Source: Candidatus Staskawiczbacteria bacterium (GTDB lineage Bacteria; Patescibacteriota; Minisyncoccia; Minisyncoccales; Staskawiczbacteraceae). Taken from it: DNA of 44,955 nt. This document shows positions 32,168-44,892 of the stretch, piece after piece; the stretch's first letter is position 1; the number at the start of each line of letters is the position of its first letter. The stretch covers positions 1 to 44,955 of the forward strand of contig CAIMWV010000032.1 in the NCBI GenBank assembly GCA_903845295.1, given 5' to 3'. Both the position numbers and the translations under genes were made by a program. The notes under the pieces are model-generated. The model was given only the letters and a program-made list of their open reading frames with translations, did no database searches and was not told where the DNA came from.

Positions 32168-32239
32168 GCCCCTATATTTCAATGGATAGAATTTAGGCTT
32201 CCGAAGCCTGAGATGCAGGTTCGAATCCTGCTGGGGGCA
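32168..32239 (+). tRNA. tRNA-Arg(CCG)
   Basis: Acceptor GCCCCTA/TGGGGGC; anticodon loop TTCCGAA; T arm GCAGGTTCGAATCCTGC; discriminator A; CCA not encoded. Confidence 0.93.
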
Positions 32240-32421
32240 CATAAAATATTTGGAGGCACTGAAAGTGCCTCCAAATATTTATTCACCCAGTGTGGTGAAA
32301 ACCCGCTCCCCGAATCGCGACGAGCCGTAGGGTTGCGAGATTTATCCGCGAAGCGGAAAATCCCGACCTAGGCGAGGAGGCGATGCCTTCGGGCAACTTT
32401 TCGAATCCTGCTGGGGGCACA
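32220..32421 (+). mobile_element. putative att-flanked 180-bp segment at the tRNA-Arg 3' end
   Basis: TTCGAATCCTGCTGGGGGCACA at 32220-32241 and 32400-32421, offset exactly 180 bp. Confidence 0.55.
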
Positions 32422-33305: not shown

Positions 33306-33505
33306 AAGACAAAAAAGCCCGGAAGATTATATCTTTGAGGGCTTTTTTAGTAAAAATTAACAACAATCTTGTCTAATAATGAGCTGAATTTGACATATAT
33401 AAATAACTCTATAGTATTAAAAGTGATTATCTGAAGTTTTTGATAATCCGCGAGCAAGGGTGTCGCATTTTTGCACTTTGTCAGCACCCAAGGGAGGAAA
33501 ATAAA

Positions 33506-33769
33506 ATGTTTGATGAAATCATAAGGCCGGGAGTTAAGATCACTTTCGATTGCACGACAAAATGTCTATTGCTCTCCAGGTATGGGAAGCAGATTCATTG
33601 GGGAGACGGCGTGGTTTCTGAGCCGGCAGAATTCATTCTCAGGCTGTCTGATTTCAATAGATTCGTTGAAATCATGGCCAAGACACGCGGCTATAAGCTT
33701 GACTCAGAAACGTCTATTTCCGCCTCCGCCGGCGAGACAACGTGGTCGCGGGTATTCCTTATGAGATAA
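33506..33769 (+). CDS. hypothetical 87-aa protein (SD-led cassette)
   Basis: GGGAGGAAAATAAA-ATG; structured 5' leader. Confidence 0.6.
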   Translation: MFDEIIRPGVKITFDCTTKCLLLSRYGKQIHWGDGVVSEPAEFILRLSDFNRFVEIMAKTRGYKLDSETSISASAGETTWSRVFLMR

Positions 33770-33853
33770 CATAGATAATTCAAATCTCATTTTATTTTTG
33801 ACTAAAACATGTCTCGTACGCACAAGGTGTCCGAGGCTTTTTATTTTGCGGGG

Positions 33854-33881
33854 TTGACACATGCTGTTTTTAGAATAAAAT
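33854..33881 (+). promoter_or_regulatory. sigma70-like promoter of candidate ncRNA
   Basis: TTGACA-16 nt-TAAAAT. Confidence 0.7.
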
Positions 33882-33887
33882 GACAGA

Positions 33888-34218
33888 TATGAGGGGGTGC
33901 GAGACTAGGTCTGCCGTTCAATAATTCTTTCACAACGAAATGCAGAAATTTTGAGAGAAAATTCGGAAAATGGAGGAGGCTTGCCCTTGTGGCAAGCCGG
34001 CGAAATTTTACAAATTTGGAGCCAAAATTTCAAGTTGTAGTTGAGGGAATTATTGATCGGCAGACCTTGAATTCTCAAGGACATAATAGCTTGCAGCGAA
34101 GGCGGAAAAAGTATATATCTGAATTCATTGTCCGAATTTAGGCTCGAGAAACAAACCAACGTCGTTGCAAAATATTAGCCCCCTCACCAAAGCCCGTCAG
34201 AGGAATCTGGCGGTTTTT
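33888..34218 (+). ncRNA. candidate large structured RNA, class not recognised
   Basis: End pairing GAGGGGG (33891-33897)/CCCCCTC (34179-34185); AGGTCTGCCG/CGGCAGACCT and CAATAATTC/GAATTATTG stems; apical GCTTGCC/GGCAAGC; terminator CCGtCAGAggaaTCTGgCGGTTTTT. Confidence 0.65.
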
Positions 34219-34286: not shown

Positions 34287-34619
34287 ATGGTTATAAAGAA
34301 AAAAATCAGCAAAAAAGCTGTAAAAAAAGTTGCGCCTAAAGTTGTGTCCAAGGCCGCAGTGAAAGAGAAAGAAGGAAAATTAATAGGTAAAATAACCCAT
34401 TATTTTTCCAATATTGAGGTGGCTGTTATTGATTTGACAGCCCCGCTAAAGGTTGGAGACAATATCAGGGTGGTCGGAGGCCAGGAAACTGATTTTGAGC
34501 AAGAGGTTAGTTCTATGCAGATTGATCACAAAGAAGTGAAATCAGCTAAAAAAGGCGATTCCGCAGGGATGAAAGTGAATGAAAAAGTTCACGAGGGATA
34601 CAAAGTTTATAAAATTTAG
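34287..34619 (+). CDS. Small protein resembling a translation-factor beta-barrel domain
   Basis: GKLIGKITHYFSNIEVAVIDLTAPLKVGDNIRVVGGQETDFEQEVSSMQIDHKEV. Confidence 0.65.
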   Translation: MVIKKKISKKAVKKVAPKVVSKAAVKEKEGKLIGKITHYFSNIEVAVIDLTAPLKVGDNIRVVGGQETDFEQEVSSMQIDHKEVKSAKKGDSAGMKVNEKVHEGYKVYKI

Positions 34620-44489: not shown

Positions 44490-44542
44490 ATTATTTGACT
44501 TAAATTTGTATTGTTTACACTGAGCCCATAAGGGCGAATGTG

Positions 44543-44892
44543 TGGAAGTGGCGAGATTGAACTCGCGTCTGAAAAGTTTTTAAAAGCAATTCTACAAGTT
44601 TAGTTAATTTTTATGTTCGAGCGTTAAATAAAGAATTAACAAAATTTTTAGCGCCTTATCTCCTTAGTTTCGATAATCTGTCGGAGATCCAGATTATCTA
44701 TCCTAATAATATAACACCCTTGGTCCGTTTATTAGGAGTCAACGGTAAGGATGCCGCATTAAGCGTATGCTAATGCTGGTTGTCTATTAAATAAATTAGT
44801 AGCAATTATGTTTTTTCTCAGAAGATTAATGAGCTCCAAGAAAGCTCAACTTGCCTTGTTTTAAAGAACTAGTCATCGAAACAATCATCCCC
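44543..44892 (-). ncRNA. ssrA: tmRNA
   Basis: 5' GGGGATGATTGTTTCGATGAC; 3' CAGACGCGAGTTCAATCTCGCCACTTCCA; tag GCT...TAA encodes ATNLFNRQPALAYA (44762-44803), resume codon about 90 nt from the 5' end. Confidence 0.92.

Follow-up and report, generated by a model that had tools for sequence, protein, structure and literature searches.

A predicted homodimeric noncoding RNA family of Patescibacteria, one copy of which carries an inserted hairpin repeat

Positions 33854–34218 of the window (the whole 44,955-nt stretch of DNA analyzed here) hold a genuine structured noncoding RNA (ncRNA) gene that, judged against its homologs, is a composite feature, a core RNA with an inserted hairpin, here called the rod. 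Comparison among homologs supports the RNA gene, its secondary structure, a pseudoknot pairing, the conserved self-complementarity of two segments (S1 and S2), and the insertion of the rod. We consider it likely that the core RNA represents a new structured ncRNA family that would be transcribed from its own strong promoter, end at its own terminator, form a homodimer through S1:S1′ and S2:S2′ contacts, and most probably act in trans, with the rod-bearing copy still functional. That this approximately 135-nt, single-copy ncRNA of a large Patescibacteria branch would function only as a homodimer or chain, with an interface whose letters may change freely provided that they still form a palindrome, is a reading that we also favor, with somewhat less assurance. 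If true, it would be an unusually small natural bacterial trans-acting RNA made of two identical strands.

The sequence-only reading of this DNA had described one structured ncRNA of about 330 nt with the rod as part of it. An independent noncoding RNA gene is indeed present, but the family RNA measures only about 135 nt plus a terminator, and the rod is foreign, a dispersed repeat inserted in this genome's copy only. The rod (33906–34068, with no strand assigned; ends TAGGTCTG...CAGACCTT) lies in the loop of hairpin P2, and its arms (AGGTCTGCCG...CGGCAGACCT) and capping stem (GCTTGCC-cttgt-GGCAAGC) contain the letters quoted in that reading. When 58 relatives were searched at the nucleotide level, the stretches up to 33906 and from 34066 were found to adjoin in same-genus relatives, and the middle piece matched other loci, both elsewhere in the host genome and in other genomes. 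Bounded by ends of the kind TAGACCTG...CAGGTCTA, the rod makes a long hairpin (∼160 nt), copies of which, 160–169 nt in size, stand at unrelated loci. A model built from 15 copies located it at about 11 separate places in the host genome and found further copies in 9 of 37 other genomes searched. Its ends are mostly TA...TA, the window copy having TT at its 3′ end. Dispersed copies, inverted terminal repeats, TA-type flanks, and an empty site in relatives are all observed, as for MITE-like elements; in architecture, the feature compared here, the rod resembles ERIC, Correia, and MITE-type repeats, being a dispersed hairpin of ∼160 bp with inverted ends bounded by TA. The copies at unrelated loci and the ∼11 genomic places thus mark the rod as a dispersed repeat, a MITE-like hairpin that inserted into the P2 loop, and on this comparative evidence the rod is an inserted element and not part of the RNA family. 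That the whole 330-nt unit, rod included, forms one ncRNA class is scarcely credible: rod and core do co-fold without conflict, but this reading is refuted by the absence of the rod from the other aligned family members, its presence at ∼11 places in the same genome and in relatives, and its TA-type ends.

The insertion made the P2 loop some 160 nt longer and left P1–P4, the pseudoknot strands, S1, and S2 intact. Since these elements are unbroken, the rod-bearing RNA is probably still functional, and because the length of the P2 loop also varies in other homologs (L060, L142, and L143), the insertion was probably tolerated. Further rod copies are found at G000:C12:17353–17512, C25:6910–7076, C7:5510–5669, and C30:31830–31994, among others, and their inner asymmetric loop (GAGGAGG/CCGACGA) around the capping stem is well kept. 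Complementarity of the arms is retained while the ends drift, which suggests possible selection on the hairpin form of the rod itself. In L073 (G032:C26), another, independent sequence with rod-type ends (TAGACCTGCTG) lies directly behind P1, at the expected terminator site. L060 (G005), L142, and L143 all have P2 extended by other sequence; in L060, its flanks GAGACT...TTGAATTCTC are those of the insertion in the window, perhaps a remnant of an excised copy.

The core RNA covers 33891–34185 minus 33906–34068, that is, about 135 nt plus terminator, and corresponds to a continuous RNA of ∼137 nt in relatives when the flanks are joined in alignment. A covariance model search of the host genome returned a single copy, the one at 33854–34218. 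The gene is preceded by a sigma-70 type promoter on the plus strand (33854–33881), TTGACA at 33854–33859 and TAAAAT at 33876–33881 separated by a 16-nt spacer, which is present where the sequence-only reading had placed it and agrees with the consensus at 11 of 12 positions. Within the 50 nt before P1, a TTGACA/TATAAT score of at least 10 out of 12 is reached in 67 of 72 homologs, as compared to 3 of 360 shuffled upstream regions. The Rho-independent terminator proposed earlier is likewise present (34194–34218, plus strand; CCGTCAGAGGAATCTGGCGG-TTTTT), and 67/72 homologs have a U-tract no more than 60 nt behind P1. No open reading frame (ORF) of note was seen on the RNA strand of 33854–34218, in line with the earlier statement that none was convincing. 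Folding of the 339-nt strand yields −124.7 kcal/mol versus −84.9 kcal/mol (SD 6.1) for shuffled sequences (z = −6.5), which exceeds chance, although the value is probably due largely to the rod, a separate inserted element, since the rod by itself folds at −68.3 kcal/mol. A striking fold in a single genome can thus stem from an inserted repeat.

Comparison across homologs supports a three-way junction in which P1 encloses the small hairpin P2 and a long arm, P3–P3b–P4, all on the plus strand. P1 pairs GAGGGGG (33891–33897) with CCCCCTC (34179–34185), the paired ends noted in the sequence-only reading, and is supported by folding and by covariation, all seven pairs being doubly changed among 72 homologs. 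P2 (GAGA, 33901–33904, with TCTC, 34073–34076) is supported by covariation. P3 comprises 15 bp (34085–34099 with 34162–34176), 14 of which show double changes; past an internal loop follows P3b (GG, 34104–34105, with CC, 34156–34157), taken from the covariation alignment of 72 homologs, and then P4 (34119–34126 with 34134–34141), again supported by covariation. A further hairpin, CCTTGA-attc-TCAAGG, had been proposed: its letters are there, but it is not conserved as a hairpin, and in relatives they belong to the 3′ side of P2 (GAGA/TCTC) and to the beginning of GGACA, one of the pseudoknot strands. The pseudoknot and the two conserved self-complementary segments had gone unseen in that reading.

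The covariation that the sequence-only reading had suggested looking for in homologs proved strong. In a MAFFT alignment of 15 sequences (A1), which was fitted to no structure, 18 of 41 pairs carry changes on both sides, a number reached by none of 500 shuffles, and sliding the structure along this alignment lowers pairing from 94% to 38–56%. Among 72 homologs, 36/41 pairs show both-side changes, with 416 double-change cells versus a mean of 101 for shuffled and 62–101 for slid versions, although this alignment (A3) was fitted to the model, so that its pair percentages lean towards the structure. Within the P4 loop AUUGUCC (34127–34133), UGUCC (34129–34133) pairs with GGACA (34079–34083). Both strands are invariant near the host, GGACA in all 15 nearest sequences, and change together in other lineages, giving GGAUA/UAUCC (L097), GGCAG/CUGCC (L125, L127, and L145), and GGCAA/UUGCC (L144). 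From these compensatory changes we conclude that GGACA/UGUCC is a pseudoknot, either intra- or intermolecular. It could be formed between molecules, because within one molecule the 8-bp P4 would have to bend sharply to bring its loop back beyond P3 to GGACA.

The two self-complementary segments flank P4, S1 on its 5′ side (34111–34118; GUAUAUAU in the window copy) and S2 on its 3′ side (34143–34148; CUCGAG), and in both the letters vary while self-complementarity is kept. Of 72 homologs, 53 have a perfect palindrome of 8 nt at S1, in 25 different sequences (shuffles: mean 3.3, maximum 9). Variants of S1 include GUAUAUAC, GCAGCUGC, GGAUAUCC, GGAAUUCC, AGGUACCU, GAAGCUUC, UGAGCUCA, GCGUACGC, and UAGGCCUA. 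Counted independently of base pairs, a Watson–Crick palindrome of at least 6 nt is present at S1 in 65/77 sequences (shuffles: mean 16, maximum 26). S2, with variants CUCGAG, CCUAGG, CCCGGG, CUUAAG, GUUUAAAC, and ACAAGCUUGU, is a Watson–Crick palindrome in 36/77 (shuffles: mean 12, maximum 20) and, when G–U pairs are allowed, in 57/77 (shuffles: mean 27, maximum 40); in some lineages it is nonpalindromic (L087, L100, L105, and L107). A scan of the whole RNA for palindromes placed S1 and S2 at the top two positions, and did so again in 39 sequences of less than 75% identity. These shuffles leave relatedness in place, and simple inheritance is argued against by the 25 different S1 palindromes. 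Nine homologs matched by the second covariance model only, and used in making neither model, served as a held-out set; seven of them carry an S1 Watson–Crick palindrome of at least 6 nt and an eighth does so with G–U, and AGACGTCT, AGAGCTCT, GAGATCTC, and GGGTACCC are new S1 palindromes among them.

The two central, adjacent bases of S1 are complementary in 69 of 72 homologs. Since adjacent bases are unable to pair within one molecule, the constraint on S1 is best read as pairing between two identical copies. Pairing of S1 with S2 was rejected, the segments not being complementary, as was a tiny hairpin at S1, since its complementary central bases are adjacent and no hairpin loop could pair them; a restriction or protein site at S1/S2 was rejected because the sequence is not kept. 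A DNA-level signal in place of an RNA dimer contact, for example the target of a dimeric protein, is correspondingly improbable: palindromes are typical of such binding sites, but at least 25 different ones occupy the same RNA position in related genomes, where a protein site would keep its sequence, and elsewhere in the gene evolution follows base-pairing of the RNA. The self-duplex energies predicted for S1 and S2 show an anticorrelation (rho −0.42, p = 0.008; 39 sequences with relatedness still in), as expected if both serve one interface and each compensates for the other. In the host's genus, S1 is rich in A and U, with weak self-pairing (about −0.4 to −10 kcal/mol), so that S2 would carry the contact there.

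The most likely contacts between two RNA molecules would be S1:S1′ and S2:S2′. Were both to form in the same pair, a four-way junction of P3, S1, P4′, and S2 would arise on each side of a two-fold axis, each monomer's P3 meeting the P4 of its partner and the two junctions being linked by two short parallel helices. With two sites on one RNA, chains would be equally buildable. Dimerization itself, a closed dimer in preference to a chain, action in trans, and any partner are points that we infer. The homodimer would most likely act in trans, either as a regulator or by serving a protein, or components of RNA polymerase or the ribosome, as scaffold or binding partner, a role guessed from the single copy number, the strong promoter, and the independence from the neighboring gene. 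The comparative record of this small RNA class describes a dimer interface at two sites, a prediction that short transcripts can test directly.

Functional RNA oligomers have rarely been observed in nature, and few natural RNAs are known as homodimers (PMC7357161). Descriptions of the first large homo-oligomeric bacterial RNAs are recent (PMC12286853); in OLE, ROOL, and GOLLD, as is predicted for the core RNA, contacts between identical copies are conserved by covariation, and OLE is a two-fold dimer (PMC12286853). Covariation of intermolecular contacts, the mark of homo-oligomeric RNAs, is seen here as S1 and S2 self-complementarity kept through sequence change. In contrast to these RNAs of hundreds of nucleotides, with other folds and hosts, the core RNA is about 135 nt long, has no Rfam relation to them, and is predicted to join by two open palindromes beside P4. 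The hatchet ribozyme homodimerizes through a palindromic internal segment (ACGU), as is predicted for the core RNA, but its palindrome is not strictly conserved and is dispensable for catalysis (PMC7357161), whereas the core RNA conserves self-complementarity over 6–8 nt at two sites. Self-complementary segments also drive dimerization of retroviral DIS/PAL and oskar kissing-loop RNAs (PMC7357161), as predicted here; those are genomic or messenger RNAs that mostly use apical loops, whereas the core RNA is a bacterial ncRNA with its segments in an internal junction.

No match for the RNA region was obtained with Rfam 15 at gathering scores in the window, 10 near loci, and 20 distant loci, and permissive searches (to E = 5–10) of the window copy and two distant members gave only subthreshold chance matches. 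The Rfam scan recommended in the sequence-only reading was therefore negative, only tmRNA (44540–44892) and tRNA being matched elsewhere in the window. No match to the region was found in a phage collection, and no description of such an ncRNA in Patescibacteria turned up in the open-access papers searched. That reading had also set RNase P, SRP, and 6S RNA aside, and none of the models tried fits the core RNA. RNase P was rejected since the core RNA matches neither its model score nor its P4/J core and the genome's RNase P RNA (RF00010) lies at another locus (G000:C10:7265–7623). For 6S RNA (RF00013), neither the host genome nor, up to E = 10, the RNA region gave a match; the large open internal bubble that separates closing and apical stems in 6S RNA is absent, and the fold instead has a three-way junction, a pseudoknot, and a P3 of 15 bp. 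Neither the small nor the large SRP RNA (RF00169 and RF01854) was detected in the host genome or in 19 and 13 genomes of the order (among G000–G041). The SRP domain IV core pattern is absent from the host genome and, with three mismatches allowed, gave only two partial, unconvincing matches in two relatives; these bacteria may lack an SRP RNA or have one so divergent that Rfam fails to recognize it.

These searches bear on the proposal that the core RNA is a highly divergent 6S or SRP RNA, a known housekeeping RNA that escapes the models. Like 6S RNA, the core RNA is single-copy, strongly promoted, terminated, and paired at its ends, and as neither RNA was found (6S in the genome, SRP in 19 and 13 relatives), both roles are formally vacant. 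The covarying structure, however, lacks the open-promoter-like internal bubble of the 6S type as well as the tetraloop and A-rich asymmetric loop of SRP domain IV, neither Rfam model matches even at E = 5–10, and the palindromes and pseudoknot fit neither RNA. 6S RNA is not known to contain a pseudoknot or palindromes of this kind. Genomes of the order in which no core RNA was detected (e.g., G038 and G041) are also without detectable SRP RNA, so that there is no sign of replacement. We regard this proposal as quite unlikely. The earlier suggestion of a possible new RNA class holds insofar as the family has no Rfam match; with no related family and an interface kept as self-complementarity at two sites, the core RNA would form such a class, and its biochemical role may yet prove familiar.

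Two covariance models, built from 15 near sequences and from 72 sequences, were used to follow the family. With the first, the RNA was detected, always as a single copy, in 24 of the 36 genomes belonging to the host's taxonomic family and in 79 of 247 of its order (Ca. Staskawiczbacteria and relatives); the second found the core RNA in 86/247 genomes of the order, again one per genome. Samples of the class and phylum contained matches only in members of the order and in a single genome (G316) from a different family within the class. Some taxonomic families have the RNA in nearly every genome, others apparently in none, and all 12 matches of a pattern scan were to Ca. Staskawiczbacteria. Patescibacteria, tiny uncultured bacteria whose regulatory RNAs are hardly charted, with 6S and SRP RNAs undetected in the genomes searched, thereby gain an order-wide ncRNA of their own.

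The surroundings of the gene are partly conserved. Among 60 homologs scanned, 27 have a tRNA-Arg gene on the same strand no more than 300 nt upstream; in the window, tRNA-Arg(CCG), identified by tRNA scan, stands 1.6 kb upstream (32168–32240, plus strand). The upstream protein gene varies (methyltransferase, NIF3, and others). Downstream lies, by similarity, a gene for a free-standing EF-Tu domain-2-like protein of about 110 residues (34287–34619, plus strand), and both neighbors are outside the RNA. In 70/71 homologs, the RNA and the downstream gene share a strand, the gene usually lying 40–130 nt after P1 and the terminator between the two, an arrangement consistent with a cis-acting leader (attenuator or riboswitch) whose terminator would be conditionally read through. 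The gene that follows is, however, not always of one kind, EF-Tu domain-2-like relatives in 35 and the unrelated SLOG/LOG-type in 28 of 71 homologs, and the upstream gene and tRNA are also codirectional, so that gene order alone may explain the orientation. The P1 3′ strand and the terminator share no bases and hence offer no obvious alternative pairing; no mutually exclusive terminator/antiterminator pairing was seen in an unsystematic inspection of homolog sequences by eye. In many homologs a −10-like box, often preceded by TG, stands behind the terminator, in an AT-rich region and with no shuffle comparison. We therefore hold a cis-acting leader to be unlikely, if less so than a divergent 6S or SRP RNA; an independent RNA gene in a conserved neighborhood would fit better than a leader of one gene, and the best reading, on comparative grounds, would be a homodimeric RNA that acts in trans and is expressed constitutively. 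Positions 33380–33830 of the window, which lie between the RNA gene and the neighbors usually found upstream of it, contain a promoter-like site, a hairpin (GGGTGTCGC...GCACCC), and a strong ribosome-binding site, as well as an 87-codon ORF (33506–33766) that has no Pfam match and is followed by a terminator-like hairpin.
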